Of a stretch of DNA of 64,000 nt, positions 16,316 through 50,852 are shown in pieces; the first letter of the stretch is position 1; every line of letters starts with the position of its first letter. The notes below the pieces were generated by a model, which was not told the origin of the DNA, made no database searches, and saw only the letters and a program-made list of their open reading frames with translations. This DNA is from Bythopirellula goksoeyrii. GTDB taxonomy: Bacteria; Planctomycetota; Planctomycetia; Pirellulales; Lacipirellulaceae. Position numbers and translations under genes: made by a program. The DNA lies in the NCBI RefSeq assembly GCF_008065115.1, contig NZ_CP042913.1, positions 3,631,658 through 3,695,657 of the forward strand, given 5' to 3'.

Positions 16316-16376
16316 GCCGCGCACGCCCCCAACTCGTCGAGTAGGCCCGGGGGATCTCTCCCCCAAGCCTCTCACA

Positions 16377-16407: not shown

Positions 16408-16421
16408 TTCAAGTTGCTGCC

Positions 16422-24380: not shown

Positions 24381-25924
24381 GGCAATTCCACTGTTAGCCG
24401 TTCAATTGCGGAAGCTCGCCCGATTTCTACCCCGTCAGCAAGTACGATGAGCCCCTTCCCACGATGGTATCGTTCTCCTGTGCGGTCCCAGAGGATGGTT
24501 AGCGTGTGATCATGGTACTTCACGTTATCGAGGCAAAACCAATCCCAAGTATTCTCCGGAATGAGTGGATCGACCTCTAAGATTCTGTCCGCTCGAGGAA
24601 CAATCCCCAAAAGTCCGGATATGACGAGATCATTGAAGGTGGAGTGATTGTAGAAGCGACTTCTCTCCGCCTTGGGGCCAGTAATTAACCATTGCCCCGT
24701 TTGTTCGTCATAGTACTCACCGATGTATGCCATGCCGTCTTGCTCCTGGGCCTCGGCATATAGCAACAACTGCTCGAAAAAGTCTTGCTTAGTAACAATT
24801 GATTGGGGTTTATTTCGCAACAGATTTGCTAGCCCATTCAAGGTCTGGCTTGTAGCGAAAGGCCAGACGGCACCATCCCACTCGCAGGTGCCTGTGCCGT
24901 GGGTGCGAAATTCGGGATGTCTTCTTTCGGCTGTCGTTATTCCCCAGGGCCCCCGAAATCCCTCCGGATCTTTCAATTGTGACCAAGCTATGGCATGTTC
25001 CGAGTCGGCAAGGTTAAACATCCATGGAATAAAGCCGATGGCTTCTCTGGCTGTGGAGAATTCTCCGCTTTCGAGCAAAACTTTGTAGAATTGCGCCTCA
25101 CTATCCCAGAGTTTCTGATTCAGTTCAGCTGTCAATACTTGAGTTTTCCCTGCGAATTCCTTGCTAAGTTCCATATTGCCCGCTAGTGCTGCTATATGCG
25201 AAATCGCCAAGGCATTGGCAGCCATGTAGCTGTTAATTGTGGGGCGGATATTCTCTTCTCGCCGGCCTCCGCTGATAGATTCCTCCATGCCATCCTTAAC
25301 ATCGTGTTGCCAGAAGAGACCGTCAGGCGTTTGGCGTTCTTCCTCCCAGATTGCGTAATCCGCGACCAAATCGGGAAGAATGTTGATGATGAAACTACGG
25401 TCCAAAGTGACAAGATACCGATCGTACAATGCTGCTGCCGCCCAACTGCTAAACTTATGGAAATGGTCGGCTGGGCCACCGTCTGGGCCGGAACGGAACC
25501 AAAACAGTGTGTACTCATCGAGCAGTCTTTGGCTGCGTAGCCAACGTCCTTCGGCAATTTGATGTCCAAAAGCACATGAAACTGTGTTGTACTCTCCAGC
25601 ATGGCTAACAGGGAGAATAAACTCGGTCAGCACCATTCCCGCCGGAGTCTGTTTGATGTGTTTTCGATAGGTCCACCAGCGAAAATAGTAAGTCTCTTCA
25701 AGCCGCGTGGAGGGACATTCAAACAGAGGTGCTTGATCGACAATCCACTGCCAGGATTCTGAATTAGGAATAAGATTGACTATCTGCTCGCTATCACAGT
25801 CGTTGAACCTCTCAACATATTGACGAAAACCATTTGGCTCTAGGATTGCAGGCTCAGCGCAGATTGAGACTGACATCCATTGCATGGGAAATATCACCGT
25901 AATAACAAGCAACAATTGTTTCAC
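24377..25924 (-). CDS. GH63/MGH1-like (alpha/alpha)6-barrel glycosidase, secreted
   Basis: After a signal peptide (MKQLLLVITVIFPMQWMSVS) the protein has the pattern of MGH1-like/GH63-like barrels: FGHQIAEGRWLR, then FHKFSSWAAAALYDRYLV, DGLFWQHDVKDGMEESISGG, RPTINSYMAANALAI, TCEWDGAVWPFATSQTLNGL and the C-terminal STFNDLVISGLLG...RADRILEVDPLIP. Candidate catalytic acids are in DGMEE and CEWDG. Family members act on glucosides, mannosides and other alpha-linked sugars, so the substrate is not assigned. It is first in a two-gene operon with the GH95 that follows (four-base overlap), so the two enzymes probably act on the same glycan. Confidence 0.75.
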   Translation of the reverse strand: MKQLLLVITVIFPMQWMSVSICAEPAILEPNGFRQYVERFNDCDSEQIVNLIPNSESWQWIVDQAPLFECPSTRLEETYYFRWWTYRKHIKQTPAGMVLTEFILPVSHAGEYNTVSCAFGHQIAEGRWLRSQRLLDEYTLFWFRSGPDGGPADHFHKFSSWAAAALYDRYLVTLDRSFIINILPDLVADYAIWEEERQTPDGLFWQHDVKDGMEESISGGRREENIRPTINSYMAANALAISHIAALAGNMELSKEFAGKTQVLTAELNQKLWDSEAQFYKVLLESGEFSTAREAIGFIPWMFNLADSEHAIAWSQLKDPEGFRGPWGITTAERRHPEFRTHGTGTCEWDGAVWPFATSQTLNGLANLLRNKPQSIVTKQDFFEQLLLYAEAQEQDGMAYIGEYYDEQTGQWLITGPKAERSRFYNHSTFNDLVISGLLGIVPRADRILEVDPLIPENTWDWFCLDNVKYHDHTLTILWDRTGERYHRGKGLIVLADGVEIGRASAIERLTVELP

Positions 25925-26156: not shown

Positions 26157-28196
26157 ATGCTTAGACCTTCATTTGTTCTTTTGGGGTTCGTCAGGTTGAC
26201 TCTCGTCGGCATGATATCTCTCGAAATGAACTTACTCACTGCGGCGGACATTGTTGACACGTCAAACAGCAAATTCACCGTCACAAGTCCGGTCGGTCTC
26301 GACGAAGTTCATTGGACCGAAGGGTTTTGGGCAGACCGAATGAATGTATGCCGAGAAAAGTCTATCCCGGCGATGTGGGAACTGATGAAAGGGCATGAGT
26401 ACAAACCATTTCTAGAGCATTTCCTCATTGCGGCTGGCCTGGCTGATGGAGATCATCACGGAGCAAAATGGAATGATGGCGACTTCTACAAATGGCTTGA
26501 AGCTGCCATAGCAACGGTAGCGGTGACGGATGATTCGCAATTGAGGGATGCAATCAATCAATCCATCGAGGCGATTGGACTGGCGCAACGTCCTGACGGT
26601 TATATTCACACTCCGGTACTCATTGCTCAACGCAACGGTGACACAAACGCGAAGCCGTTCCAAGATCGACATGCTTTTGAAATGTATAACATGGGTCACC
26701 TGATGACGACGGGATGCATCCACTATCGAGTAACCGGTGAGACTACCCTTCTCGATATCTCCAAGAAAGCAGCGGACTATCTGATTGAGACTTTTCGCAA
26801 TCCCACCCCCGAACAGGCCCGCAATTCTATCTGTCCATCTCATTACATGGGTGCTGTGGAGCTTTATCGCACGACTGGCGAGGCTCGCTATTTGGATTTG
26901 GCAAAGAACTTTCTGGCAATGCGAAATCTTGTAACTGACGGGGGTGACGATAATCAAGATCGTATTCCGTTTGTCGAACAGCGAGAAGCAGTGGGACATG
27001 CTGTAAGGGCCAATTACCTCTACGCTGGTGCGGCTGACCTGTACGCGGAGACAGGTGAATCAGATCTCCTGGAACCTCTAGAGGCGGCCTGGAACAACAT
27101 GGTCTCCAAGAAAATGTATATAACGGGAGCTTGCGGGGCTCTTTACGATGGCGCCTCTCCGGATGGTTCAGCTGATCAGCAGCATATTACACGCGTACAT
27201 CAGTCGTACGGACGAAACTATCAGTTGCCCAATACCACCTCGCACAACGAGACATGTGCGAATATCGCCAATCTTATGTGGTCGTGGCGAATGTTTCAGC
27301 TAACCGGTGATGCCAAATACGTCGATGTCCTGGAGCTGGCTCTATACAACAGCATCCTGAGTGGTGTGAGTCTGAGCGGCACAGAGTATTTCTACGTCAA
27401 TCCGATGCGAGTCGTTGATCCTTTGCCGACAAGTTTGAGATATCCTCGGACACGCCAGCCCTTTTTTGTTTCCTTTTGTTGCCCCCCCAACCTATTGCGC
27501 ACCATTGCTGAGATCAGCGGATACGCCTACAGCAAGAGTGAAAATACTTTTTGGCTCAATCTGTATGGTGCCAACACGGTTTCCATGGAGTTCCTTGGAG
27601 AACCGTTAACAATTTCACAGCAGACTGCCTATCCTTGGAACGGAATTGTCCAATTGCAAATTGAAGCTTGTCCCAAGCAGGAATTCGCGATTAATCTGCG
27701 GATACCAGAGTGGGCGGACGGGGCTACTGTCGCTGTCAATGACGAACAGCTAGAAACATTGAGCATAGTAAAAGGCTTTTGCCAAATCCGCCGCAGATGG
27801 AAAATAGGTGACCGCGTCGAACTCAACCTACCCATGCAGGCAAAGTTAATGAGAGCAAATCCGCTAGTTGAAGAAACCACGAATCAGGTAGCCGTTCAGC
27901 GAGGTCCGATCGTATATTGTTTGGAATCAGTCGATTTACCAAGCGGCGTAAACATTGAGGATGTGATTATCCCTCAAGACATCCAGCTTCAAGAACGCTA
28001 TGATGCAGATTTCCTTCAGGGTATCACATTGATCGAAGGAACGGCACTAGTCTCAAGTACCCCCGAATGGGGTGAAAAGCTATATCGTGAAGCGGGTAAA
28101 CGTACTACCAAAGAGTTCGAACTTCGTTTAATTCCGTACTATGCTTGGGCAAATCGCGGGCAATCAGAAATGTCGGTTTGGCTACCTGTGCGGTAG
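26157..28196 (+). CDS. GH127 family beta-L-arabinofuranosidase-type enzyme, secreted
   Basis: The 679-residue protein has an N-terminal hydrophobic signal, then the (alpha/alpha)6 barrel of GH127 (SKFTVTSPVGLDEVHW start, YLYAGAADLY, YNSILSGVS). The zinc/cysteine catalytic set of HypBA1 is present: Glu365 and Cys367 in HNETCANIANLMW, and Cys441 (nucleophile) and Cys442 in SFCCPPNLLR. GH127 enzymes release beta-L-arabinofuranose. A Bacteroides member instead removes aceric acid from rhamnogalacturonan II, so the exact sugar is open. The gene stands alone on the plus strand, diverging from the GH63-like/GH95 operon and meeting the DUF6298 gene tail-to-tail with a 23-base gap. Confidence 0.92.
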   Translation: MLRPSFVLLGFVRLTLVGMISLEMNLLTAADIVDTSNSKFTVTSPVGLDEVHWTEGFWADRMNVCREKSIPAMWELMKGHEYKPFLEHFLIAAGLADGDHHGAKWNDGDFYKWLEAAIATVAVTDDSQLRDAINQSIEAIGLAQRPDGYIHTPVLIAQRNGDTNAKPFQDRHAFEMYNMGHLMTTGCIHYRVTGETTLLDISKKAADYLIETFRNPTPEQARNSICPSHYMGAVELYRTTGEARYLDLAKNFLAMRNLVTDGGDDNQDRIPFVEQREAVGHAVRANYLYAGAADLYAETGESDLLEPLEAAWNNMVSKKMYITGACGALYDGASPDGSADQQHITRVHQSYGRNYQLPNTTSHNETCANIANLMWSWRMFQLTGDAKYVDVLELALYNSILSGVSLSGTEYFYVNPMRVVDPLPTSLRYPRTRQPFFVSFCCPPNLLRTIAEISGYAYSKSENTFWLNLYGANTVSMEFLGEPLTISQQTAYPWNGIVQLQIEACPKQEFAINLRIPEWADGATVAVNDEQLETLSIVKGFCQIRRRWKIGDRVELNLPMQAKLMRANPLVEETTNQVAVQRGPIVYCLESVDLPSGVNIEDVIIPQDIQLQERYDADFLQGITLIEGTALVSSTPEWGEKLYREAGKRTTKEFELRLIPYYAWANRGQSEMSVWLPVR

Positions 28197-28219: not shown

Positions 28220-31200
28220 CTATGGTTTAACCTCTGAAATCCAGATTGCTTTAGATTTCGGTGACAGCTCTAAATGTTTCTCGGATCGAATCTCGGTATC
28301 TTCAACTATTTCTCCGGTTTCAGTATCGATCCATCGCAATCGTAGAGTTTTAGCATTGGTTGCAAAGTCTATCGCAAGCTCATCTGATGAAGTTTCTGTG
28401 TAGACCAGAAGATCGCCATCTTGGGACGCCATGGACCACTGGCCGTTGCCCTTCACTACATTGTCAACCGGAAGCATTCGTGGTGCTTCGCGGGCTAATT
28501 CCGGTGGCAGGCTCACATTCGGCAATGAACCTCCTCCCATTACGACTGCCCATCCCGCGTTAGGACTTCGGCAAACGAGATCAGCATTGTACAGAACTAC
28601 TTTCTCCGGATAGATGCTGCGGTATTCGCTTACTGCCTTTACGATCGAGTCGAAAGAGGAGGCCTGTGGTCTCATTTGCCGCATATGTTGACGTGGTGCT
28701 AGATACTTCCCCCCTTCAGGCGCGTACAGTTTGAAATCCTTATCGTATGTCCAGTAGCGGATATCGATGATGTCAACATGAGGTCCTCGCTCTGGATCTG
28801 CCAGAATCACATCTTGTACATCTTTCGTGCAGCTAAGTCCGAGAAGTATTTTGTTACCAGTCTCTTGTTCCCACTCGACGATTGTGTCGATCCAAAACTG
28901 AACGAACTCCAAGGGTCCAGTGAATTCGGCACTTGTCATCTGAATGACATTGGAGCGATCTTTAAACGCATCTAAACATTGGCGAATGTACCGTCGGTGT
29001 AGCTCGCGGAGATTGGGATTGGCAACATCATAGAAGTGTTGAGCCATGAAAAGACGTTTGTCGCCAATATAAGGAGGTGGCTCAGGGAGGCCCGTCTCAT
29101 TGATATTGTTCGCCGGCCTCCAGGGACAATCGGCCCAGTGCGCACCCGCTTCCAGGATGTTATGCTGAAAGTAGTTTTGATGAACGAGTACCAGTCCATT
29201 TTCTTCACATTGCTGTGCAAAGGCTTTGAGGCGGTGCCAATACCAGGGATTCTCCTTGGTCAGATCGTATTTACTCAATCCATCCCAAGCTAATCCCTGC
29301 CCGCTTCTTGCGAATGGCTGTTCGTAAAATGGTGGAGCAACCGCTCCGTCGGCCCGTCTCACCATTAAATGGTCATCGCGCCGGCGGTCGTACCATAAAC
29401 CGTAGTGATGTTCATAAACTGCTGTGCTCTTAGCAACCATATCCTCTACCACGTCTTGAATATCTTCCGTGAGGCCGACACCTTCTCTGCCAGGGACAAA
29501 CCGAGAGATATTATGACCAAAACTTTCAGCTTCTTCAGGGTGAAGTTTGCCTCTCCACCAGGTGGGCGTGAGGCGTTTCCCGGTTATCAGTTGGCCGTTT
29601 GCAACGAGCCAACCATTCTCAACGGATACTTCCTTTTCAGACGCTACTTTTTGCAAGGCTTCTTGATTCGGAAGATTCTCAAGATCAACCGCATCATTGA
29701 GTTCGCCGGCCTCAAATTTAACTGCCAGCTCTTCTGTCGCCCGCGCGATGTTGTCCTCAATCAAATCCACAAGTTGTTTGGCTGGGAGCTCCGATTGCTC
29801 AAGAAAATGCGCTGCCTCTTGATAGCTTGGGTTGGTGGCAGCAATTGGCTTACCCAATATCAGATCGAGGCGAGCCGCCGCACTTTCATCCAAACGCTGT
29901 CTTAACTGTGCCTGATACAAGCTCTGCGGCTTTACGAAATCACTCGAACTCTCGAAAACTCCATCTCCGGCAGGAGTCGCCCACGCACCTATTGTCCAAT
30001 TGTTCGCATCAGGTGGACGAAAGCAGCGGACGTTTGCTGCTCGACACTGCCAAAGGAGGCAATTCGCGGCGGCCCAACCCGTACCAGGCGGATCGTTCCA
30101 GCGATTCTGTAGTTGCAGATCGCTTCCATCGATTCGAACATTATCATAGAGAACTCCCGAGGCCCAACTCTCGATGGGACCGCTTTCTCCGAGAGCACGA
30201 TCGGCATGACACTGAACAAATGCATTCGGGCCAGGAGCACAATGCCCCACTGAGAAATCGTGTCGTCCCGATTCTGACCAACACCGATTGAACAAGGTCA
30301 ATTGGCCCAGAGTGAAAAAAGTATGCCGCCGATAGCCACCAATTTCTGAGATGGGAGCAAGGGAAATGCAGTCTTCCACAGTGATCGATTTCGTATTGCG
30401 GCCTAGCGAGACGGCTCCCCCGGCAAAGTGTTCAAAAGTTGTCCGTCGTACCCATGCATTTTGCACGTTGTCCATCGTGATGCCAAACCACGAATGGTCT
30501 TCATCCTTAGGATTGTCCTCGGAATAACTCGACTGAAGGCAAACGTCTTCGATGCCTACGTGCTGGAGTCGCCCAGGCCAGTCGTAGATATGTACGGTGC
30601 CCCCACCAAAGTGTTTTTCCAGCGCCGTAGTTATGGGAGCGTCAACAGTTATAGAATCCTCATCAACTTGGGTTATCTTTCGATCCCAATAAATATCTCT
30701 CGAACCAGGCTTCCAACCTATCCCCTCCGCTCTTCCTCCAACTTCCTGAATCCACTCTGCTGTGCTGGGACGAGTAATCAACACAGAATCCCCGACCGCA
30801 AATGAATCAGCGGATCCGACGTTGAATATATATGCGCCCACATTGACATAGTCGTCTCTGATTTCCTGAATACCGGGCTCATCTTGGATCGTACGGTCAT
30901 CTACTCCCATAACCTTGATCAGTGCCCGTCGATCCTGTCCAGTAGCTAGAACGGTAGTCCCACCTTTGTTGGCGCCGGATCCTTGGAGTACAACTCCGGA
31001 AGTCCTGATTAGGATCTGTCCGGCGACTTGGAACTCCCCCGGTGCAAGCCCCACGGCACCGCGATAGCCATCACTGTCTTTTGGCAAGTCAGCTACATAA
31101 TCTATTGCTGTCTGGATTCGTTCTCCATCATCGCCATCTGCCGGTTTCACAACGACCCGAACGGTAACTTGCGGAATATCACTGGAAGCCATGTCGTAGC

Positions 31201-31396
31201 CACAGTAAGAAAAATCGGGTATCGCATTTCCTTGCTCATCCTGCGCGTAGTTCAACTTGCCGTTGTCATCTGGCCTCACTGATGGCTGAGCAGAAGTAAA
31301 TGCCAAAGAAACCACTAAACACAATACGCAAGTCAGACAGAGTTTTCCAAAAGTCCTGAAAACCAACATCATAAGAGCTTGCAGATATCGTTGCAC
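28220..31396 (-). CDS. Secreted beta-helix plus DUF6298 protein (1058 aa)
   Basis: The N-terminus is a signal peptide (residues 1-36). Residues about 75-500 look like a right-handed beta-helix of the pectate-lyase type (IQTAIDYVADLP, GVVLQGSGANKGGTTV, VRRTTFEHFAGGAVSLG, RCWSESGRHDFSVGHC). Residues about 590 to the end match DUF6298 as I know it (LWYDRRRDDH, PPFYEQPFARSGQGLAWDG, VHQNYFQHNILEAGAHW), likely a TIM-barrel glycosidase-like domain. A hydrolase or lyase acting on an uncommon pectic linkage is inferred from the fold and neighbours; no activity is established. It is the last gene of the eleven-gene run, 37 bases after the transporter. Confidence 0.8.
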   Translation of the reverse strand: MQRYLQALMMLVFRTFGKLCLTCVLCLVVSLAFTSAQPSVRPDDNGKLNYAQDEQGNAIPDFSYCGYDMASSDIPQVTVRVVVKPADGDDGERIQTAIDYVADLPKDSDGYRGAVGLAPGEFQVAGQILIRTSGVVLQGSGANKGGTTVLATGQDRRALIKVMGVDDRTIQDEPGIQEIRDDYVNVGAYIFNVGSADSFAVGDSVLITRPSTAEWIQEVGGRAEGIGWKPGSRDIYWDRKITQVDEDSITVDAPITTALEKHFGGGTVHIYDWPGRLQHVGIEDVCLQSSYSEDNPKDEDHSWFGITMDNVQNAWVRRTTFEHFAGGAVSLGRNTKSITVEDCISLAPISEIGGYRRHTFFTLGQLTLFNRCWSESGRHDFSVGHCAPGPNAFVQCHADRALGESGPIESWASGVLYDNVRIDGSDLQLQNRWNDPPGTGWAAANCLLWQCRAANVRCFRPPDANNWTIGAWATPAGDGVFESSSDFVKPQSLYQAQLRQRLDESAAARLDLILGKPIAATNPSYQEAAHFLEQSELPAKQLVDLIEDNIARATEELAVKFEAGELNDAVDLENLPNQEALQKVASEKEVSVENGWLVANGQLITGKRLTPTWWRGKLHPEEAESFGHNISRFVPGREGVGLTEDIQDVVEDMVAKSTAVYEHHYGLWYDRRRDDHLMVRRADGAVAPPFYEQPFARSGQGLAWDGLSKYDLTKENPWYWHRLKAFAQQCEENGLVLVHQNYFQHNILEAGAHWADCPWRPANNINETGLPEPPPYIGDKRLFMAQHFYDVANPNLRELHRRYIRQCLDAFKDRSNVIQMTSAEFTGPLEFVQFWIDTIVEWEQETGNKILLGLSCTKDVQDVILADPERGPHVDIIDIRYWTYDKDFKLYAPEGGKYLAPRQHMRQMRPQASSFDSIVKAVSEYRSIYPEKVVLYNADLVCRSPNAGWAVVMGGGSLPNVSLPPELAREAPRMLPVDNVVKGNGQWSMASQDGDLLVYTETSSDELAIDFATNAKTLRLRWIDTETGEIVEDTEIRSEKHLELSPKSKAIWISEVKP

Positions 31397-31433
31397 TGGA
31401 ATGTCCTCTGAAGTAATAAATTGGGTTATGAAA

Positions 31434-32750
31434 TCAATCGGAATTTGATGCTTTCGACTCGTTGTGACGGCGGATCTGGTTGGCTAGGAGCGATCCTGAG
31501 ATATTCATCCATGGACTGAACACTGCCGCTGCCAAGCCGACTGTACCCAACTTTCCCATCAAGCCTGCCAATCCAGAAGCCATCCCGCCGTTTTGCATTC
31601 CGACTTCAAAACCTACGGTAATTGCCGACTTCTTGTCGAGTCCTGCGAGGCGACTCATCAAATAGCCAAGTGTATAGCCGGAAAAATTATGAATAACAGC
31701 CGCGAGGAAAAGAGCCATACCAGCTACCAGTAAATTGTCTCTTCCGGCTGCTGTAGTGACCGCGGTAAAGAAAACGATTCCGAACATAGAAATAACATGC
31801 ATGTTGCGATCAATCCAAGGTAACCGACTCGCGATAAAGTGATAAGCTAATGCAAAGGTCACTGCTCCGCTGAAAATAACGAGTGCTTCTAAAGCAGCAG
31901 GCGACAGAGGAAGAACATAAGCGTCCTTTATGAGCCAGCTATTTATTACCAATAGGATACAAACCACCCCGCAGATCATTCCAGTAGCGACTACTATCTT
32001 TCTCATCGGGAGAGTCGCGTGTTTCAAGTAGTCTTGCAGCAGGGCAGCGCCAATTGGCACGAGCACAATTTTGACGATCTGCCCCAGCATTGCCAAGGAA
32101 TCAATTTCTACGAACTCTCCGGCAAGTCGTTGCATCCAAAAGGTTGTCGCTAGGGGGGCAAGCAATGTGGCTACTGCCGTGAGCGTGATCGAGAGTGCTA
32201 AGTTTGCGCCAGCAAGATAACACATCACGTTTGATGCTAGACCACTGGAACATGAGCCAATAAGCACTACCCCTGCTGCTATTTCTGGAGGAAACGCAAA
32301 AAACTTGGCCAAGGCGTAGCCCATCAACGGCATAATAAGAAATTGCAGTCCCACGCCTATAAAGACCGGGTATGGCATTTTCGCCACACCTGCGAAGTCC
32401 CTGAAGCCCATTTTTGTTCCCATGCCAAACATTACCAGTTGGACGATAACCAAAATCACCCATTTATTTTGCAAGTCGATTTCTGGTATCTGAAACAGCT
32501 TAAGATCAAAGGGGCCCAAGTGAAGGAAGTGGGTTGGATAGATTAATGCTGAGACTACGGCTGCCAAGATCCACAGTGTGAATCGATAGCCGGAATAGTT
32601 TGGAAACGCACCGAGGCCGAGAGCAGTTGCTACAGAAGCAACCACTGCCGCCGGTTGCCAAAGTTGGGCAGAGGAGAAAAATACTCCCAGCAAACATAAG
32701 ATAAGAGCCAAGCCTGCAACTACTAAGCAGAGTTTATACGCAATTGACAT
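31434..32750 (-). CDS. BASS/SBF-family (bile acid:sodium symporter-like) transporter
   Basis: About ten to twelve hydrophobic helices are visible over 438 residues. The two crossover motifs of the family are recognisable: GSCSSGLASNVMCYLAGANL near the middle and EVGMQNGGMASGLAG near the C-terminus. BASS proteins are sodium-coupled carriers of organic anions (bile acids, pyruvate, 2-keto acids, pantoate-type compounds). Because it lies nine bases after the racemase-like gene, in a run with an RLP and a sugar-acid kinase, it probably imports or exports a sugar acid or an intermediate. The cargo is not visible from sequence. Confidence 0.87.
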   Translation of the reverse strand: MSIAYKLCLVVAGLALILCLLGVFFSSAQLWQPAAVVASVATALGLGAFPNYSGYRFTLWILAAVVSALIYPTHFLHLGPFDLKLFQIPEIDLQNKWVILVIVQLVMFGMGTKMGFRDFAGVAKMPYPVFIGVGLQFLIMPLMGYALAKFFAFPPEIAAGVVLIGSCSSGLASNVMCYLAGANLALSITLTAVATLLAPLATTFWMQRLAGEFVEIDSLAMLGQIVKIVLVPIGAALLQDYLKHATLPMRKIVVATGMICGVVCILLVINSWLIKDAYVLPLSPAALEALVIFSGAVTFALAYHFIASRLPWIDRNMHVISMFGIVFFTAVTTAAGRDNLLVAGMALFLAAVIHNFSGYTLGYLMSRLAGLDKKSAITVGFEVGMQNGGMASGLAGLMGKLGTVGLAAAVFSPWMNISGSLLANQIRRHNESKASNSD

Positions 32751-32759
32751 ACTAGGCGT

Positions 32760-33419
32760 TTATAACACACTTGCGAGATAGTCTACAGCCAAAGAAGGAC
32801 TCGACAGAATAGGAATACTGACAGCGCCAGCCTCCAACTGGCTTGCCACTCTGGCCATGGAAGCTTGGGCCAGGACAATGACGTCGACCTTCGGAGCAAG
32901 CCTCTCAATAGCATCCTTCACGGCGAGATCATGCTTCTCAAGGTCTCCGATGAGAAATGCGTCGAAAGCACCGCTGCACAACTCTGTTTCAATACTGATC
33001 TCCTTCCCAACCTTCTCTGCTTGGCGTCGGATGAGATCAGCAGTTGGCGTCAAGGTAGTAACTAAGGTTGCTACCACGCCAATCTTGGCACCTAGTTTGA
33101 CTGCCTCTTCCGCCAAGGGTTGATCGACACGCAAAATTGGCTTGTGGAGCCGAGACTGGGCAGCATCCACCGCAGGGCCTATCGAAGAACAAGTCACCAT
33201 AATGTAGTCGGCGATCGTGTCTTCAGCGGCGGTGAGATGATGTAGTACTCGCTCCAAAGTATCGGCAGTCAATTCTCCATCCGCAATCACATCTCGAATC
33301 AAAGTCGAATCCGCTATATGAACTAAATCCACATCAAGTTTCTTCTCTTTACACAACTGTTCAAAAACAGGTTCCAGAGATGATGAAGTGTGAACCAAAG
33401 CTAATGTTTTACGATTCAT
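32760..33419 (-). CDS. Asp/Glu/hydantoin racemase superfamily protein
   Basis: The ATG at 33419 (MNRKTLALVHTSSSL) is preferred over the start at 33455. The fold is that of the two-cysteine racemases. The first catalytic Cys is present (MVTCSSIGPAVDAA), but the position of the second holds AQASMARV with no Cys. Family members with one Cys include racemases using another second base, maleate isomerase-like and decarboxylase-like proteins. A role in handling a sugar-acid intermediate is suggested by the adjacent kinase (37 bases upstream) and transporter (9 bases downstream). No function should be taken as certain. Confidence 0.75.
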   Translation of the reverse strand: MNRKTLALVHTSSSLEPVFEQLCKEKKLDVDLVHIADSTLIRDVIADGELTADTLERVLHHLTAAEDTIADYIMVTCSSIGPAVDAAQSRLHKPILRVDQPLAEEAVKLGAKIGVVATLVTTLTPTADLIRRQAEKVGKEISIETELCSGAFDAFLIGDLEKHDLAVKDAIERLAPKVDVIVLAQASMARVASQLEAGAVSIPILSSPSLAVDYLASVL

Positions 33420-33456
33420 GTTTTTATCTAATCTCGATCGTTGGGATCGATACAAC

Positions 33457-34845
33457 CTATTGGATTGTTCCTGTGAGCAGCGACCCGAAGTATTCCTCTC
33501 GTCCGACTTGACCTCCTTTAAAACTAATCTCGACTCCGTCGGCAGGAGACCTTGGAGCCCGAGCGGAGCATAATGGAGCTCCTATTGCCAAAGGGTAGAG
33601 CATCTCAATACTCTCGACACCGATTTCCTGAGCGATATAGCTGGAGGTATCGCCACCTGCCACACAAAGTCTTCGTACTGATGTTTCCGCTAAAGACTGT
33701 CTTACCAAGTGCCCCATCGCAGTTCCAAGAACTTGCGAACTGTGTGCTGCTATTGGCTGACCATTAGGGCTCCATTTGGAGAACACCTCTACTGTAGCTG
33801 CTATGCGCGGGTCAGAAGACCCCTTGCTCGTATGTGCGACGACACTTTTCCCTGATTTTAACAATCCGATTACTTCGCGAGTTGACCGCTGGATAGATTC
33901 TTCCGTACCTTCCTTGGCAGCTACCGCCGGTGTATCAATTGCTACTTCTGCGAACCCGTTCTTGGCTGCCCAAGCAATCTGGGAATCTGTAATGGGGGAA
34001 CAGCTGCCAGATACAACCAAGACATTGTTTGTCTTTTCCGGAATATCCCAATGCGTTACTGGGGAAATTGTGCCATCCGATGTCCACTTCGAGCACAGAG
34101 CCGTTTCAATCGCAGAAGAACCCACGGAAAAAAGTGGCTGTCCGGGGCAACTTCCCTCGTCGATTAAGCTACCAATGTGCTTTATATGTTGGTTATTTAG
34201 AACGTCAAAGAGCACGACCTCAGCGCCTGCAGCAATGAGATGATCCAGCTCTTTTTTTTGCTGTTCATCAGGCAATGCGAGCTTCAGCACACTGAACAAA
34301 TCAGTCTTCGATTGTGTCTGTGCTGCTAGATGAACACGAAGATCACTTTCTGTCATGGGAGTCTTGGGATGGCAACTCATCGAGGGGTGTCGATCAAGTC
34401 GGTATACTTCCCCCGAATGCCCAACTCCAGCTGCTGCAAACAGATTACCAAACAAACAATAGCGTCCCAACGACGGCGAACCTACTACGAGTGGAACATA
34501 GGCCGAGCCGACAACTCGTCGGCCAACATCAATTGCGCAGCCTATGCTTCCAGTCTCAGGAGTAGAATCGAACGTTGAGCACACTTTGTAGTGAATATGA
34601 CGTGGACGGTGCTCTAGAAATGCGGTGAATGCATGGACTAACTCGCTCTCCATGGCCTTAGGCGCAAGAGAACGAGTTGTTCCAGCCACTCCTATGGCTT
34701 GCAATCCGTTGTGTCGAGATAGCATCTCTGGAGTGGGAGGCTGAGTGAACAAAGCCGATCGGACTCCTGCTCGAGCTAGACATTCCAATGCATCGGTGGA
34801 GCCGGTGAAATCGTCTCCATAATAGGCGAGCAACAATTCATTCAT
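33457..34845 (-). CDS. DUF1537 four-carbon-acid-type sugar kinase, OiaK/OtnK-like
   Basis: The frame opens at 35169, but the true start is the ATG at 34845 (MNELLLAYYGDDFTGSTDAL), giving 462 residues. It overlaps the RLP stop by four bases. The N-terminal domain carries YGDDFTGSTDALE (substrate binding) and the C-terminal nucleotide domain VVAHTSKG and CVAGGDTSSYIAQEIG. DUF1537 kinases phosphorylate 3-oxo-tetronates, D-threonate, erythronate or 3-oxo-isoapionate. Coupling to a RuBisCO-like protein specifically recalls the OiaK kinase of D-apiose catabolism, which makes the 4-phosphate that the RLP cleaves. That choice is inference; an OtnK-type role with the aldolase at 38864 is the alternative. 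Confidence 0.88.
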   Translation of the reverse strand: MNELLLAYYGDDFTGSTDALECLARAGVRSALFTQPPTPEMLSRHNGLQAIGVAGTTRSLAPKAMESELVHAFTAFLEHRPRHIHYKVCSTFDSTPETGSIGCAIDVGRRVVGSAYVPLVVGSPSLGRYCLFGNLFAAAGVGHSGEVYRLDRHPSMSCHPKTPMTESDLRVHLAAQTQSKTDLFSVLKLALPDEQQKKELDHLIAAGAEVVLFDVLNNQHIKHIGSLIDEGSCPGQPLFSVGSSAIETALCSKWTSDGTISPVTHWDIPEKTNNVLVVSGSCSPITDSQIAWAAKNGFAEVAIDTPAVAAKEGTEESIQRSTREVIGLLKSGKSVVAHTSKGSSDPRIAATVEVFSKWSPNGQPIAAHSSQVLGTAMGHLVRQSLAETSVRRLCVAGGDTSSYIAQEIGVESIEMLYPLAIGAPLCSARAPRSPADGVEISFKGGQVGREEYFGSLLTGTIQ

Positions 34846-36137
34846 TGGACCAGGGCTCCCTGAGATGTTGGAGTCTGATCTAAACCAGTGCAAAGATGTT
34901 TCGAGAATTTTTCTGTAGATCGCAACAAAGCTGGAGATTCTACAATCGCTTCTTCCAGGGAAAGGCCGGCAACAGCAGCCTCCCAAGCTTGCTGGAGTGC
35001 TTTCACTCCTTCGGAAGGACCATCGGGATGCGCCAATATTCCTCCTCCGGCGAGATACAATAGGTCGATAGATTGTGTCTGGCGATAAGTCTCTGGTGCC
35101 TGCCCCCCCCATTGGCCGGAAGATACAACTGGCAGAATCTCCCATCCACCAAACATCGGTTCTTGACATGCCTTGATGGATCGGATTACCGAATCATCTG
35201 ATTCGCAGAATTTGTTCTGAAGACCGTTGACATGGATCTGATCGACTCCGACCAATCGCCATAGTTTTTGGTAGGCTTTGAAATCAATACCCAACAAGGG
35301 GTGTCGATTGAGCATCCCCCAGCCATTGCGGTGTCCATGGATAGCGAGCTTTCCTCGATCACAAATCTTCTTGACTCCCGCGATACCGACGCTATTAAGG
35401 CTGACCATCGCACAGGTACCACCATGACTAATCACAGTATCATAGTGATCTAGCATGCGATCCATCTCGTCGCTGAGATTGAATGCAAACATGATCTTCT
35501 TGCCACTGCGATCTGCGTGATCATTGATTACACGCATAACCTCTGCAACACGTTCGTTAAAAGGTGAGTGAGGAGCATCAGCCATTAGCTCATCGTCTTT
35601 GATGAAATCGACCCCCGCCTCTGCAAGTGTCCTCACTAGTTCGGCAGTTTCCTGGGGAGACATCCCCACACTTGGCTTGATGATTGTCCCTAAGAGCGGA
35701 CGATCTTGGATGCCAGTCAACCGTCGAGAACCTTCAATTCCAAAATTGGGACCGTTAAAATGCGATGAGAAAGTCGGAGGGAACTCCAAGTCTACTAATT
35801 TCAGGCCAGAAAACTGTCGCATTTCATAGAGGTTGCCCTGCACTGTCGAGACAATCGTTGGCAGGTTGTACCCAACGTTTTCAAGTGACCAGGAGACGAC
35901 TACCTCGGCACGACGATAGCTGTTAGCATTGGCCGAGCAGCCAGGTAGACTTGGTGAACTGCATTCTTCGATCTCCCTAATACTTTCAACGCGAGCGGCA
36001 AAGCGTTCTTTTAGGGCTGCAGTTTCACCCGGCACGGAAACAAAGGTACCGGAAGATTGCTCGCCTGCCAACGACTCTGCCGCAGCCGCGATATCTAGCG
36101 GCGTCTCGATCAGATAGGTTGCGGAGAATCGTTCCAT
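34842..36137 (-). CDS. RuBisCO-like protein (form IV) with a full set of catalytic residues
   Basis: The 431-residue protein has both RuBisCO large-subunit domains. Equivalents of the catalytic residues are present: Asn102 (QGNLYE), Lys154 (IIKPSVG), carbamate Lys180 with Asp182 and Glu183 (FIKDDE), His269-Arg270 (HGHRNG), His302 (IHVNG), loop-6 Lys309 seven residues later, Ser339/340 (VVSSGQWGG) and a GGG phosphate loop (LAGGGILAHP). It should enolise a phosphorylated keto acid. RLPs coupled with DUF1537 kinases act on 3-oxo-isoapionate 4-phosphate in D-apiose pathways. It starts 24 bases after the pectate lyase and its stop overlaps the kinase start, so kinase and RLP are made together. Confidence 0.93.
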   Translation of the reverse strand: MERFSATYLIETPLDIAAAAESLAGEQSSGTFVSVPGETAALKERFAARVESIREIEECSSPSLPGCSANANSYRRAEVVVSWSLENVGYNLPTIVSTVQGNLYEMRQFSGLKLVDLEFPPTFSSHFNGPNFGIEGSRRLTGIQDRPLLGTIIKPSVGMSPQETAELVRTLAEAGVDFIKDDELMADAPHSPFNERVAEVMRVINDHADRSGKKIMFAFNLSDEMDRMLDHYDTVISHGGTCAMVSLNSVGIAGVKKICDRGKLAIHGHRNGWGMLNRHPLLGIDFKAYQKLWRLVGVDQIHVNGLQNKFCESDDSVIRSIKACQEPMFGGWEILPVVSSGQWGGQAPETYRQTQSIDLLYLAGGGILAHPDGPSEGVKALQQAWEAAVAGLSLEEAIVESPALLRSTEKFSKHLCTGLDQTPTSQGALVQ

Positions 36138-36161
36138 GTTGTTTCAATACCCTGGCCGAAA

Positions 36162-37877
36162 CTACTGCCAGAATAAATCCCGATAGGTTTTCGGAGTGGA
36201 CCAGGGGTCGTATAGCGTGCCGGGATCTAATCCATAGAGAAAGTCTTCGATATGTGTATACCCGTCGAGATTGAGATCGCCAGTGGCATCGGATGGATCA
36301 ACTGGGTCAAGATTATGACTCAGCTCCCACTGATCGGGCATACCGTCGCCATCGGTATCTTGATAAGGTTCGCCCTCGTAATTGGGATACCCACCAACTT
36401 GTTCGATATCAGTAATTATTCCCTTGCCTTCCCGATAGCCGACTTCCCCCGTTCGAACCATTTCAACCACGCGCTGATCAACTTCGTCGCGTTTTGGAAG
36501 TGTAGCTCCAGCGTTGTCCAGGACAAATGCATATGCCTCCTCGGCAGTCTGGATTGTCAAGTAAGAATGGGGGTAGGGCTGATCTGCTCTTACCTGGGCA
36601 AGAATTTCAGACCGTGTTTCCTCTACAAGAGACCTGCGTTGCTTCGGTGAAAGATCAGCCATTCCCGACCTAAGCTGCTTTTGAGTTAATTGTTCAGAAC
36701 TAGCCAACAGCTCTTCTTCCTCAAATTGGACCCCGCCATTCCAGTTGTCCCTGGTGACCTGTTCATTTCCATCGACTACATTGCCGGCCACATATGCCTT
36801 ACCAAAGTCGAGATTGAAGCTCGGACTCCTGCGCTTCTCCGGCTTGAGGATTCGGTAACTGATCGGACGTGATTGGTCAGTAATAGGGCCAGGCTTGAAA
36901 TAGTTGTTTACGATTGTGTAAAAACTGCGATGGTCACCGCCGTCAATCGTTCGATGCCGCCAATTAAAAAGGACGTTATTGGCAAAGGTAAAATCGTAAA
37001 TCATTCCAACACTGGGGTTGCGCCCTGTGTTGCAGGCCCAAAGATTGTGGTGGAACGTGCTGTTGTAGCCTCCTAAAGTACTGCCAAAGGAATGGTTGTA
37101 GGTATCCAAAGCTTCACTAAAGATGGAGTTCTGAATCGTAATATTTACTGTCGGAAGCTTCTGTTCCCGACTACCATCAGGCGGCTCATACATGTGGCGG
37201 TACATTGACAAGTTTTCGTCCAAACCCCAACTTGCCGAAACGTGGTCAATAATAATGTTCCCTACTGGATTACCTCCTAAGGAATCGTTGCGATCGCCAA
37301 CCCACGTCGCCCCTCGCCGAAACCGCAGGTGACGAATAATGACATCATGCGTCTCGATCTCAACAGTGTCGCCGGCGATGCATACTCCATCTCCCGGTGC
37401 GTGGCTGCCATCGATGGTAAGGTAAGGAGCGCGTACTAAAATTCGTTCTTTCAACTTGATGATTCCTGCCACGTTGAAGACGACGAACCGAGGCCCTCCA
37501 GCTTCCAAAGCATCCCGGAAACTTCCCGGACCCCTATCGTTGAGATTTGTCACGACATACACTTTCCCCCCACGACCGCCGAAGCTATACATGCCTCCCC
37601 CCTGAGCACCTGGAAATGAAGGAATCGATGCCTGAGGTAAGTCGCTCGGCGTTTTGGCCCAAGGAATATAGGGCTTATCCTTGGCTTCCCACTGGCGTAT
37701 TGTGGGCAGTGCTTTTCGCCAAGCGGCGTCTGAGTGCTCCTGGATAGCGTCCATACGCTTCTTTGACTCCGCAGCAACTTCAGGACTAATATCGGGGTAT
37801 TGGCCAAGGCATACATCTGCCAGCAAAGTCAGAAGCGTAAACGTGGCTCCATAGAGGATATTCAAAATACGAGTCAT
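36162..37877 (-). CDS. Secreted pectate lyase (PL1-like) with Ca-binding tail
   Basis: A signal peptide (MTRILNILYGATFTLLTLLA) is followed by about 60 helical residues. The parallel beta-helix begins at FPGAQGGGMYSFGGRGGKVY and includes GPGSFRDALEAGGPRFVVFN, YLTIDGSHAPGDGVCIAGD, VIIRHLRFRRG and IIIDHVSASWGLDENLS, all typical of pectate lyases, with Asp/Arg clusters for Ca and catalysis. The C-terminus has a thrombospondin-3-like or EF-hand-like Ca segment (DTDGDGMPDQWE and LNLDGYTHIEDFLYGLDP). It would cleave homogalacturonan stretches outside the cytoplasm by beta-elimination. Its place directly before the RLP and kinase ties those genes to pectin use. Confidence 0.88.
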   Translation of the reverse strand: MTRILNILYGATFTLLTLLADVCLGQYPDISPEVAAESKKRMDAIQEHSDAAWRKALPTIRQWEAKDKPYIPWAKTPSDLPQASIPSFPGAQGGGMYSFGGRGGKVYVVTNLNDRGPGSFRDALEAGGPRFVVFNVAGIIKLKERILVRAPYLTIDGSHAPGDGVCIAGDTVEIETHDVIIRHLRFRRGATWVGDRNDSLGGNPVGNIIIDHVSASWGLDENLSMYRHMYEPPDGSREQKLPTVNITIQNSIFSEALDTYNHSFGSTLGGYNSTFHHNLWACNTGRNPSVGMIYDFTFANNVLFNWRHRTIDGGDHRSFYTIVNNYFKPGPITDQSRPISYRILKPEKRRSPSFNLDFGKAYVAGNVVDGNEQVTRDNWNGGVQFEEEELLASSEQLTQKQLRSGMADLSPKQRRSLVEETRSEILAQVRADQPYPHSYLTIQTAEEAYAFVLDNAGATLPKRDEVDQRVVEMVRTGEVGYREGKGIITDIEQVGGYPNYEGEPYQDTDGDGMPDQWELSHNLDPVDPSDATGDLNLDGYTHIEDFLYGLDPGTLYDPWSTPKTYRDLFWQ

Positions 37878-37960
37878 GGTTCCTTGTCCGATTCACCCTC
37901 TGGAAGCCAGCAAAGTGAATTCTTAGTCATAGTCTTAATCTGGGCAAAGGATGCCCCAAG

Positions 37961-38599
37961 CTACATCTTATAACCAGCAGCTGATAAGTAGTTGTTGATT
38001 TTGCCTTTGTATTTACGAAACCAACCATGTTTTTCGTCCGAAGTGCCAGCATCCATAGCATACTCACGGGCTTCTATTAAAAATGCCAAGACCGTACGTT
38101 TTTCATCTTCGCTAAGATTAGGAAGCTTTTGCAGGTAGCGAGCGTACGTCGCAGGTACGACCCCGTATGTCATACCGTCTTTTACGCCATTCACTTGGTC
38201 AGAATTTAACTCCACAGCTAACTGGGCAACAAAGCTTCGATGCAAGTTAAACTGTTTGATCAGTGAGTCCTGTCGCACTCGTTCGATCAAGACTCCAACT
38301 CTTTGCTCATTCTCTCCAGCCGTGTCTTTCAGGCTCGCAATCTCAGCATCGCGCGAATCATGAATTTCTCGCAAAGCCCGGTATTGTTCTGCTATCAATT
38401 GCTCGGTGCGTTGGACACAGTCCTCGTCAGTGAGTTCGAGTTTATCAACAATGGCGCGGGATCTTGCAGCGATCGCCTGAGAGTACGCCTCCTCCTGACT
38501 GCTTTTGTCGTCAACGGCAGTTTGTGAGCGTGTTGCAGTAAAAAGCTGCAACCAAATCGCGAAACTAAGTGACAGTATGATGTGACGCTTGGAAAACAT
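37961..38599 (-). CDS. DUF3826 family secreted protein
   Basis: The ATG at 38599 begins a signal peptide (MFSKRHIILSLSFAIWLQLF, cleavage near TATRSQT). The earlier in-frame start at 38659 adds an unlikely extension. The 190-residue mature part is helical and charged (AIAARSRAIVDKLELTDEDC, EQLIAEQYRALREIHDSRD) and ends with WFRKYKGKINNYLSAAGY, which I associate with DUF3826. Members occur in polysaccharide-use loci next to pectin enzymes; the molecular role is unknown. A long helical region suggests a coiled coil. It lies 83 bases before the pectate lyase. Confidence 0.75.
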   Translation of the reverse strand: MFSKRHIILSLSFAIWLQLFTATRSQTAVDDKSSQEEAYSQAIAARSRAIVDKLELTDEDCVQRTEQLIAEQYRALREIHDSRDAEIASLKDTAGENEQRVGVLIERVRQDSLIKQFNLHRSFVAQLAVELNSDQVNGVKDGMTYGVVPATYARYLQKLPNLSEDEKRTVLAFLIEAREYAMDAGTSDEKHGWFRKYKGKINNYLSAAGYKM

Positions 38600-38728
38600 A
38601 ATGAATAAGAAAGTGTTATTGAGAAATCCCGGTTCTTTTAGCATATTCAGGGGTTGCAATATATTAAAGGAGACCGCCTTGCAATGCTGTTCCGCAAAAC
38701 CGCAGCAGAAGGTACTTCAGCGAAATCG

Positions 38729-38743
38729 CGTCAATTATTGACG
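38729..38743. promoter_or_regulatory. 15-base perfect palindrome upstream of DUF3826
   Basis: CGTCAATTATTGACG is symmetric around a central T. It lies 130 bases before the DUF3826 ATG, in a 264-base gap (38600-38863) that is the longest inside the eleven-gene run. A dimeric repressor or activator site and an internal promoter are plausible. No bound regulator is known. Confidence 0.4.
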
Positions 38744-38863
38744 GGAAATCGACGATGTGGCGGAGTGACCACACGAGCTAGTTGTAGGCCGGACATTACC
38801 TAGAAACAGTACCCACGAAGAAATTGCAATGGAGCAGCTGGGCAGATACTGCCAGAGCGTGAA

Positions 38864-39631
38864 TCAATTCGATTCGATCATACGTTGGCGATAATGCTCG
38901 TCAGAACGAGAGGCGATGCGATCTACTTGTTCTTGAGGCAAAACGATTGGACCTCCTGCTGCGATTGCACCGACAAACACACGTGCCGACTTTTCTGTCA
39001 TTCTGAGTGTGGCTTCCACCTGCTTGGCTGTTGTTCCCAGTGCAATGAGTCCGTGGTTTTCTAAGAGAATGGTTTTTGGAAAGGTCTTCTTTCGCTTGAT
39101 AAAATCATCGACGAGATCTGCAATTCGAGTAGCGAGAACTAGCCCTGGATCGACGTAGGGCACCAGTACAGATTCTGCTCCACAGTAAACGATTTGATCA
39201 GGAAATAGCCGATGCTCAGCAAACTCTTTTGCTCGCGGTGAACAGAGGACTTGATTAACACATACAGGATGCGTGTGTCCAACGAATAACACGTGAGGCA
39301 ATTGCAAAAGCCATGCATGGAATAAGGTTTCCACTGAAGGCTTCAATGCTGTGGAGTCAACACGGCTTGTCAGCAACAAATCCTCGATCTCATCGTCCTC
39401 TACATTGCTTCCTTTGAGAGCCTTGAGAATCGGTTTAGAATGAACAGCAACAAGTTGATTCTCCGTTAGCGAACCAAGCTCGGTACCACTGGCCTTAATT
39501 AAGAACTGATCAGCGTTGAGCTGCCCAGAGACATTACCCTCGCCCAGAATCGCCATTTGTTCGGTCGTACCGATGCGATGAGACAACTCAAGGAGTTTTT
39601 CGATCGTTTCGTTAACACTATTCATTGTCAT
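38864..39631 (-). CDS. Class II aldolase/adducin family protein
   Basis: The 255-residue protein has the zinc-aldolase signature: GEGNVSG (residues 30-36, phosphate binding), SGTELGSL, Glu101 in SVETLFHAW, the metal pair His119 and His121 in VGHTHP, and a third His in LENHGLIALG. Relatives cleave fuculose- or rhamnulose-1-phosphate, or decarboxylate 3-oxo-tetronate 4-phosphate (OtnC type). With GH95 and GH78 enzymes releasing deoxy-L-sugars, an L-fuculose- or L-rhamnulose-phosphate aldolase role is possible. With the DUF1537 kinase in the same run, an OtnC-like role is equally possible. No signal peptide is seen, so it is cytoplasmic. Confidence 0.87.
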   Translation of the reverse strand: MTMNSVNETIEKLLELSHRIGTTEQMAILGEGNVSGQLNADQFLIKASGTELGSLTENQLVAVHSKPILKALKGSNVEDDEIEDLLLTSRVDSTALKPSVETLFHAWLLQLPHVLFVGHTHPVCVNQVLCSPRAKEFAEHRLFPDQIVYCGAESVLVPYVDPGLVLATRIADLVDDFIKRKKTFPKTILLENHGLIALGTTAKQVEATLRMTEKSARVFVGAIAAGGPIVLPQEQVDRIASRSDEHYRQRMIESN

Positions 39632-39719
39632 TCAATGTAGTTCTTCTTAAACGTATGGATACTAGTCGTAGTTCGCTTTTTCGGATGTTTCGGTAGGTAT
39701 TCTTCGCTATCTAGTGTTC

Positions 39720-45568
<5,849 letters not shown>

Positions 45569-45569
45569 G

Positions 45570-46727
45570 TTAGTTCTTCCGAAGATCCACAGAAGTTGCC
45601 AGGGCAAGTGCGCGGCCTTCCTTGCCGACTGCGCAGTAGAAATGATAAACCACGCCATCATGTTTGAGCATCCAAGGCTTGTGGGCAAAAGTCTTATCCC
45701 AAGGCTCCGAAGGTTGAATTAGGACCTCTCCATCCCACTGAGTCCAATGCACTAGATCCTTGGAACAGGAAAAACTATCGAACGCTCCTGGCCCCCATCC
45801 TAAACCAAAATAAAACATGACCCATAAGTCATCGATCTTGACGATCTGAGGATCTCCAGAGATTCCTTTTCCATTGTCGATCACCGGTCCAGAGCCATAG
45901 CGCGACCAGGTCTTCATGTCCTTGGATACCGCCATTCCAATTCGTTCAATTCCTTCACCCTGCTGCTTCCCGTTGTAATACATGACAAAGGGGTAGCCCA
46001 ACGATTCCGATTTATCCCAAAGGATCTGACTCTTATAGAGCGTAGCGCGTTCGAAAGGGCGGGCATCTGGCTGATTCGGAGTTAGCACTGGATTTTCTTC
46101 CAGACGATTCCAGGGTTGTGGTTTCTGGGGCTGAGTAGTCCAAGCTAGCCCTAACGACAGCGGATCGGTTTCGTAGCCTTGCAGGGCGCCGCCGAAGTAA
46201 GACATCCAGTATTTTCCGTCATAGGATTGCAGCTTCATCGACCCTCCCCAAGTGGGGTCGACCAAAGCAATGCTTCCATCGGCTTGCCATTTATCCCAAC
46301 CGCTCTCACGAAAAGGAAGAATTGTCCCTAGTGGTTTCCAATTCAGCAAATCTTCGCTGCGTGCCAGATAGGTTTCGTAACCAATCTTGCCCTTAATCCC
46401 TACGTATACCATATACCAGGCATCATCTCCACGAAAAATGTTCGGGCAATCAATCGAATGACCTTCACTGGGTCGCATTACGATTCCATATTTATATGGT
46501 GTTTTGACTTCCTCGTAGATCGCCTTCATCTCTTCCTGTGTTACGGTACTCTCGGGATCTCGTTGGCGGGCTTCAACGACTTCTCTTTCTTTGGGCGCGG
46601 CCCAAGAAGTCTCAGCAGAAAGACTCATGCAGAAGAGCAACGAGCAACTCATCAAGCATAAATTCAATGTAAGTTTCTCATTTAATGACAAGAGAATGTC
46701 TGAGTTTGTTATCATGACAGTGAGCAT
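45570..46727 (-). CDS. Five-bladed beta-propeller glycosidase (GH43/GH32/GH130-like)
   Basis: The protein has a signal peptide (LTLNLCLMSCSLLFCMSLSA) and then repeated blades with Asp-rich turns: HSIDCPNIFRGDDAWYMVYV, YLARSEDLLNWKPLG, YDGKYWMSYFGGALQGYE, RIGMAVSKDMKTWSRYGSG, GDPQIVKIDDLWVMFYFGLG and FAHKPWMLKHDGVVYHFYCA. This is the five-bladed fold of GH43, GH32 and GH130. The typical family-specific catalytic triad cannot be assigned with confidence, so the exact family is left open. It is first of the eleven-gene run and ends one base before the GH95 start. An alternative start is the Met five codons in. Confidence 0.78.
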   Translation of the reverse strand: MLTVMITNSDILLSLNEKLTLNLCLMSCSLLFCMSLSAETSWAAPKEREVVEARQRDPESTVTQEEMKAIYEEVKTPYKYGIVMRPSEGHSIDCPNIFRGDDAWYMVYVGIKGKIGYETYLARSEDLLNWKPLGTILPFRESGWDKWQADGSIALVDPTWGGSMKLQSYDGKYWMSYFGGALQGYETDPLSLGLAWTTQPQKPQPWNRLEENPVLTPNQPDARPFERATLYKSQILWDKSESLGYPFVMYYNGKQQGEGIERIGMAVSKDMKTWSRYGSGPVIDNGKGISGDPQIVKIDDLWVMFYFGLGWGPGAFDSFSCSKDLVHWTQWDGEVLIQPSEPWDKTFAHKPWMLKHDGVVYHFYCAVGKEGRALALATSVDLRKN

Positions 46728-50651: not shown

Positions 50652-50852
50652 TTCTGTCCTTCGTATCCTTACTGGTAGACAGCCAGCACCCCACTCTGAG
50701 ACAGAGAATCATAAGACTTATAGATCTTGCTTGTCAGAAAGTACTACAACAACCCGGCAGCAGAGATGGACGAAAGGTGGACTCTGTCTACTTTGTGGTA
50801 AACAATAGTAGTATTGATTCGAAAACATAACCCTCGGCAAATTAAAGATTCT

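Follow-up and report, generated by a model that had tools for sequence, protein, structure and literature searches.

Bythopirellula goksoeyrii, a member of the Planctomycetota, encodes one RuBisCO-like protein (RLP) in its whole single-contig genome of 6.47 Mb. The RLP gene lies in a run of eleven open reading frames (ORFs) on the minus strand, at positions 28220 to 46727 of the window analyzed here, that is, the whole 64,000-nucleotide stretch of NZ_CP042913.1 from 3631658 to 3695657 (G000:C1:3631658-3695657 in our numbering). We describe this run, a four-gene core within it that includes the RLP gene, and the wider conserved region to which both belong. Proteins of the window were assigned to families with Pfam and NCBIfam, and the closest structures were identified by a PDB sequence search. 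The run is made up of the following genes:

45570-46727, minus strand: GH137 homologue, a 5-bladed propeller of the rhamnogalacturonan II (RG-II) chain B β-L-arabinofuranosidase type (NF049877, 397 bits; top PDB match 5mt2_A, 314 bits)
43091-45568, minus strand: GH95, α-L-fucosidase/galactosidase family (PF22124, 588 bits; start corrected to 45568)
39720-43094, minus strand: GH2, LacZ-type five-domain β-galactosidase family (PF02836, PF02929, PF02837)
38864-39631, minus strand: class II aldolase (PF00596, 73.5 bits; top NCBIfam matches, RhaD-type aldolase/dehydrogenases)
37961-38599, minus strand: DUF3826 protein (PF12875, 176 bits)
36162-37877, minus strand: PL1-like pectate lyase (PelZ model NF041900, 137 bits, under the cut-off of 840)
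34842-36137, minus strand: RLP, core gene 1 (OiaX equivalog model NF042437, 513 bits; cut-off, 700)
33457-34845, minus strand: DUF1537-type kinase (SBD_N/NBD_C), core gene 2 (OiaK equivalog model NF042436, 420 bits; cut-off, 700)
32760-33419, minus strand: one-cysteine Asp/Glu-racemase-fold protein, core gene 3 (PF01177)
31434-32750, minus strand: BASS/PanS-type carrier, core gene 4 (PF01758 [SBF], 96 bits; PanS model, 177 bits; cut-off, 400)
28220-31396, minus strand: DUF6298 protein (PF19815, 677 bits); adjoins the core in four planctomycete loci

With the likely starts, the spacers from the GH137 end to the DUF6298 end measure 1, -4, 88, 264, 83, 24, -4, 37, 9, and 37 bases, the kinase and RLP genes thus overlapping by 4 bases. 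An earlier description made from the letters of the DNA alone (here called the sequence-only reading) had placed the same eleven ORFs at the same positions, and the longer gaps of 264 and 83 bases that it pointed out are as it gave them. Its suggestion that these gaps may hold internal promoters found no support: promoter-like and terminator-like matches were no commoner than in shuffled sequence. Its family assignments held for GH95, GH2, the class II aldolase, DUF3826, the RLP, the kinase, the racemase family, BASS, and DUF6298, the PL1 assignment being left with a PelZ match under the cut-off. What it called a propeller glycosidase is present and can be refined to a GH137 homologue, which aligns with the N-terminal portion of NF049877, a model for an RG-II enzyme.

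Four genes of the run, encoding the RLP, the kinase, the racemase-like protein, and the BASS carrier, recur widely. When one genome of each species was scanned, 80 loci were obtained with RLPs of ~60 to 79% identity, mainly in Bacteroidota and Verrucomicrobiota, with a few in Planctomycetota. The racemase-like gene was present in 73 of 83 loci inspected, and the BASS gene was found alongside in 70; among the ten loci without a racemase-like gene, five were of the ApnL/ApnO type discussed below, four were cut by contig ends, and one was neither. These counts come from unevenly sampled genome collections, in which contig ends interrupt several of the loci. The flanks of the core vary, with GH127, GH137, GH78, GH2, and PL1 genes and, in Bacteroidota, TonB-receptor genes, and in other phyla the lyase and the majority of the glycosidases are missing from beside the core. 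Since the four genes stay together while their neighbors otherwise vary, we regard them as a functional unit. The eleven-gene run, which the sequence-only reading took as a likely transcription unit and which may be one, exists, but its ends are not functional ends: the functional core is the four genes, and the conserved region is wider than the run.

Two RLP loci of other composition were noted. On a Streptomyces plasmid (NZ_CP108139.1; locus L120, 2235-16262), an RLP gene and a DUF1537-type kinase gene are flanked by GH28, GH78, and GH2 genes, with no racemase-like or BASS genes; this Actinomycetota locus represents a different sort of pectin-linked RLP set. In another planctomycete (locus L003 of genome G200, 2757-3833), a Gfo/Idh/MocA oxidoreductase gene lies directly upstream of the RLP-kinase pair, and no racemase-like gene was present on the short stretch examined.

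The nearest named models for the first two core proteins are the D-apionate enzymes OiaX (3-oxo-isoapionate-4-phosphate decarboxylase) and OiaK (3-oxo-isoapionate kinase), reportedly described by Carter et al. in 2018. The RLP keeps K154, K180, D182, E183, H267, R270, S340, and G364-366, which are common to the OiaX-annotated sequences and which we take to correspond to the carbamylation lysine, the Mg ligands, and the base lysine of RuBisCO. In a quick maximum-likelihood tree, 74 core RLPs and four from cut-short contigs formed one clade (Shimodaira-Hasegawa-like approximate likelihood ratio test, SH-aLRT, 100), and every ApnL/ApnO-type RLP fell outside it. Loci of the ApnL/ApnO type, found in Armatimonadota, Latescibacterota, Gemmatimonadota, and some alphaproteobacterial plasmids, carry an RLP and usually a kinase gene and no racemase-like or BASS genes, and the core genes and ApnL/ApnO were never seen in one locus among the 83. 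Protein queries with ApnL and ApnO found neither in any of 26 core genomes, this one included, and both in two control genomes; the ApnL NCBIfam model gave no match in this genome, in a search without a positive control. These data bear on whether the core could encode a variant of the D-apiose/D-apionate pathway, in which the BASS carrier would bring in apionate or 3-oxo-isoapionate, the racemase-like protein would take the place of ApnO or ApnL, and the OiaK and OiaX homologues would keep their known reactions. Such a variant would suit the two nearest models, yet both matches are under the cut-offs; and although, with ~63% identity, the ApnL-type RLPs of three loci (L096, L097, and L107) come close, the core RLPs form a clade of their own, none of the core genomes searched has ApnL or ApnO, and an Asp/Glu-racemase fold is an unlikely stand-in for an NAD-dependent oxidoisomerase.

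The conserved region extends on both sides of the run. In Bythopirellula polymerisocia, gene order is shared over ~58 kb at 59 to 92% identity, from the second GH95 gene to a GH29-like gene past the window, with one FucI-like isomerase gene inserted between the LacZ and aldolase genes. In Aeoliella straminimaris, the RLP-kinase-racemase-BASS-DUF6298 series is retained, together with the convergent GH127, the second GH95, and the MGH1-like genes. The conservation in relatives that the sequence-only reading had named as its own test is thus found. Gene order kept in B. polymerisocia, with the RLP-kinase-racemase-BASS set recurring in ~70 loci, indicates an arrangement beyond chance. The GH127, GH2, BNR/GH33-like, DHDPS-like, and GH78 genes and a separate apiose block are parts of the same conserved region as the run, in which we list the following features:

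21969-24380, minus strand: second GH95 (PF22124; synteny)
24377-25924, minus strand: MGH1-like glycoside hydrolase (PF22422; synteny)
26157-28196, plus strand: GH127 of the BT1003 type, convergent with the run (top PDB match 5mqo_A, 703 bits; next, 415 bits)
46888-49335, plus strand: GH2 outside the run (PF02836/PF18565; 618 bits to 7rsk_A; synteny)
49542-50651, plus strand: BNR_2 (GH33-like) protein (PF13088, 312 bits; synteny)
50814-51812, plus strand: DHDPS-family lyase (PF00701; synteny)
58326-61145, minus strand: GH78 α-L-rhamnosidase (PF17389, 407 bits; synteny)
L161 4000-8788 (G000:C1 3699657-3704445), outside the window: probable D-apiose block of FucI-like isomerase, split transketolase (AptA and AptB), and FGGY kinase

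RG-II is the most complex pectin in plant cell walls. We take 5mt2, the closest structure to the propeller protein, to be a GH137 β-L-arabinofuranosidase acting on RG-II chain B, and 5mqo, the closest to the GH127 protein, to be BT1003. In 150 genomes of the genus Flavobacterium, GH137 and GH127 were found in the identical 25 genomes, ~15 kb apart where one contig carries both, which supports an assignment to RG-II that does not rely on our identification of 5mqo. BT1003 is a hydrolase that acts on aceric acid (3-C-carboxy-5-deoxy-L-xylose) in RG-II breakdown (PMC10850190, PMC5698469). By these assignments, GH137 and GH127 both act on side chain B, and the region appears to be an RG-II utilization locus. 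Pectin as the target, and the pairing of extracellular pectin depolymerization with a cytoplasmic RLP/kinase pathway in one locus, were rightly recognized in the sequence-only reading; its generic pectin or apiogalacturonan gives way to the much more specific RG-II, to which GH137 and GH127 point. A GH140 apiosidase (PF13204) was not found in this genome, two control genomes being positive, so a different apiosidase would be needed if apiose is released. The DUF6298 protein is no more than a candidate for this role and, more broadly, a candidate RG-II glycosidase; its AlphaFold2 model (mean predicted local distance difference test score [pLDDT], 42.7) is too poor for a claim about its fold.

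The link between the core and RG-II holds across genomes. Each of the 44 core genomes searched had a BT1003-type GH127 scoring 682 bits or more, and two ApnL-type genomes had none above 405 bits. Within the Flavobacterium set, the racemase-like gene occurred in 9 genomes and GH127 in 25, with an overlap of 8 (Fisher P = 1.7e-6, kinship ignored), and in three of these genomes (G411, G420, and G478) the two genes lie on one contig, ~50 to 55 kb apart. In five loci (L057, L095, L098, L104, and L105), the GH127 gene is immediately upstream of the RLP gene. As GH127 marks RG-II degradation in general, this co-occurrence shows dependence on RG-II and not on aceric acid alone. It could be argued that the core merely sits beside the RG-II glycosidases in a stretch where sugar genes abound and shares no substrate with them. 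The core is indeed rare in the phylum, a survey of RLPs in 392 Planctomycetota genomes having given two matches above 60% identity, one of them this genome, among mostly distant RuBisCO relatives, and its flanks differ between phyla. However, the association recurs in independent phyla, GH127 accompanies the core wherever it was searched for, and the Flavobacterium overlap speaks in the same direction, so that we consider clustering without a common substrate quite improbable.

The apiose block offers a further view of the substrate. The AptA, AptB, and FGGY kinase homologues are adjacent (L161 4000-7321), the AptA-type gene being 6.5 kb past the window end, and the block is syntenic in B. polymerisocia; in Aeoliella it immediately precedes the RLP core, with 62 bases between them. 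Eleven core loci neighbor a split transketolase, and most of these also have genes for a FucI-like isomerase, an FGGY kinase, and an Rbs-like ABC transporter. The transketolase and kinase genes of the related loci match AptA, AptB, and AplK of Escherichia coli SE15, in which the aptA, aptB, and aplK cluster supports growth on D-apiose (PMC13001218). An AptA-type transketolase above 350 bits was found in 27 of 45 core genomes, this one among them. RG-II contains apiose, and the 18 core genomes without a close AptA would leave room for the variant apionate pathway; set against this, the transketolase-type block of this genome is separate from the core, its counterpart in Aeoliella being contiguous with the core, and apiose is probably handled by a pathway other than the RLP core. 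Apiose as the core substrate is made unlikely by the missing ApnL and ApnO together with this block, and we rate the variant pathway as rather unlikely. The presence of two neighboring pathways for branched sugars suggests two such substrates, and RG-II has two sugars of this kind, apiose and aceric acid.

The proposal that the core acts on aceric acid draws on chemistry, the ketose isomer of aceric acid corresponding to 3-oxo-isoapionate plus one methyl group. The gene identities, the conservation of the core, its separation from the apionate pathway, its linkage to RG-II enzymes, and the separate apiose-type block come from sequence comparison; from these we infer which substrate is consumed, in what order the reactions run, and what the individual core proteins do. 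In the proposed scheme, side chain B would be cut back extracytoplasmically by GH137, GH78, GH2, and GH127, the BT1003-type GH127 would free aceric acid, and the BASS carrier would take it up. Either the one-cysteine racemase-fold protein or an isomerase encoded elsewhere in the genome would convert the aldose to the ketose CH3-CHOH-C(OH)(COOH)-CO-CH2OH, the CH2OH of which would be phosphorylated by the OiaK-like kinase. The product would be a 2-carboxy-3-keto acid, carrying the motif of the RuBisCO six-carbon intermediate, and the OiaX-like RLP could decarboxylate it to a 5-deoxypentulose 1-phosphate. The class II aldolase (38864-39631) might then split this into dihydroxyacetone phosphate (DHAP) and acetaldehyde, and/or act on fuculose or rhamnulose 1-phosphate. 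The class II aldolase DrdA performs such a cleavage on 5-deoxyribulose 1-phosphate (PMC6079011).

A different acid derived from RG-II or pectin, for example a derivative of Dha, Kdo, or galacturonate, might instead be degraded by the core through RLP chemistry of an unknown kind. RG-II does have acidic sugars besides aceric acid, and the specificities of BASS and of the kinase are unreadable from sequence, but none of these acids is C-branched with a tertiary carboxyl beside a potential ketone, as established OiaX/RuBisCO chemistry requires, and deoxy-keto acids are normally cleaved by lyases, of which a DHDPS-family member is present. We hold this explanation to be unlikely. The gene for that lyase (50814-51812) follows the gene for the secreted BNR_2 (GH33-like) protein (49542-50651), and the pair is conserved with the locus in B. 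polymerisocia; it is a candidate for the release and splitting of Kdo or Dha from RG-II side chains C and D.

The isomerization of aceric acid is tentatively assigned here to the racemase-like protein. Its AlphaFold2 model (pLDDT, 92.4) has the Asp/Glu-racemase fold, with a Z score of 21 to 1jfl_A (aspartate racemase) and 3s81_D. The first catalytic cysteine, C77, is invariant, and the second of the two cysteines of two-base Asp/Glu racemases is missing in all 66 aligned members, which have LAQAS at that site. A one-base site fits aldose-ketose isomerization and not two-base racemization, with other roles possible; we therefore put forward an aldose-ketose isomerase as a possible function, at somewhat less than even chances. 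The FucI-like isomerase of B. polymerisocia (L032 4822-6501) was considered as the missing isomerase, a candidacy weakened by the homologue in this genome being unlinked (at 5.76 Mb) and by the isomerase occurring in only 7 of 15 core genomes.

Several points weigh against the aceric acid proposal. We know of no aldose-ketose isomerase with an Asp/Glu-racemase fold, and 5mqo, which we take to be BT1003, has the PDB title non-reducing end β-L-arabinofuranosidase. In Flavobacterium, 17 of the 25 GH127-bearing genomes lack the core, GH127 being a mark of general RG-II degradation as well. Where a close AptA is missing, apiose could still be the substrate, and the apiose block itself is a putative one, recognized by its homology with the E. 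coli SE15 cluster. The class II aldolase gene adjoins the core only here and in B. polymerisocia, there beside the FucI-like isomerase gene; it was rejected as a conserved core member, and the enzyme may instead serve L-fucose or L-rhamnose. Finally, GH127 relatives of BT1003 can take other substrates (PMC5698469).

On balance, we favor, with moderate confidence, the reading of the region as an RG-II locus with a conserved four-gene pathway for aceric acid that uses OiaK/OiaX-type chemistry. That this is an undescribed aceric acid pathway with an RLP decarboxylase, starting in the cytoplasm with a one-cysteine racemase-fold aldose-ketose isomerase and present as a module of four genes in RG-II degraders of at least three phyla, is a more tentative proposal. 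To our knowledge, the bacterial breakdown of aceric acid has not been described, and no paper in the literature collection searched joined aceric acid, catabolism, and RuBisCO. If the proposal is true, RLPs gain a new physiological substrate, a conserved orphan gene module is explained, and a genetic marker becomes available for bacteria that use RG-II completely.

Elsewhere in the window, eight minus-strand proteins are encoded in a run at 856-7423, several with a PEP-CTERM-like sorting signal at the end (for example, VPEPSS... and IPEPAS...). An ORF at 9864-11132 has a weak, under-cut-off match to Lar_N (lactate-racemase N-terminal) and adjoins an ORF resembling a sigma-54-dependent regulator (8621-9703). 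Upstream of the locus, at 15056-17900, a transposase-like ORF lies close to an ORF for a group II intron-type reverse transcriptase.

Among known systems, the E. coli SE15 apiose pathway (PMC13001218) resembles the region in its split transketolase and FGGY kinase but uses a pair of short-chain dehydrogenases/reductases where a FucI-like isomerase is found here, in a block separate from the RLP core. The salvage of 5-deoxyribose by DrdK, DrdI, and DrdA (PMC6079011) shares the proposed final class II aldolase step and differs in its upstream chemistry, the order proposed here being isomerization and then phosphorylation, with a decarboxylation in addition. The OiaK/OiaX system is similar in its adjacent, often overlapping genes for an RLP and a DUF1537-type kinase, in being the best NCBIfam match, and in its catalytic positions; in place of its ApnL/ApnO, the core has the one-cysteine racemase-fold protein and BASS, with a BT1003-type GH127 in every core genome searched. 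The RG-II degradome of Bacteroides thetaiotaomicron, reportedly described by Ndeh et al. in 2017, presumably includes GH137, BT1003-type GH127, GH2, and GH95 enzymes, families that are found here too. B. thetaiotaomicron uses 22 enzymes to metabolize RG-II (PMC12282258). Unlike that degradome, the present system has no GH140-type apiosidase in the genome and no SusCD seen in the window, and what it appears to add is a cytoplasmic pathway for the released rare sugar.

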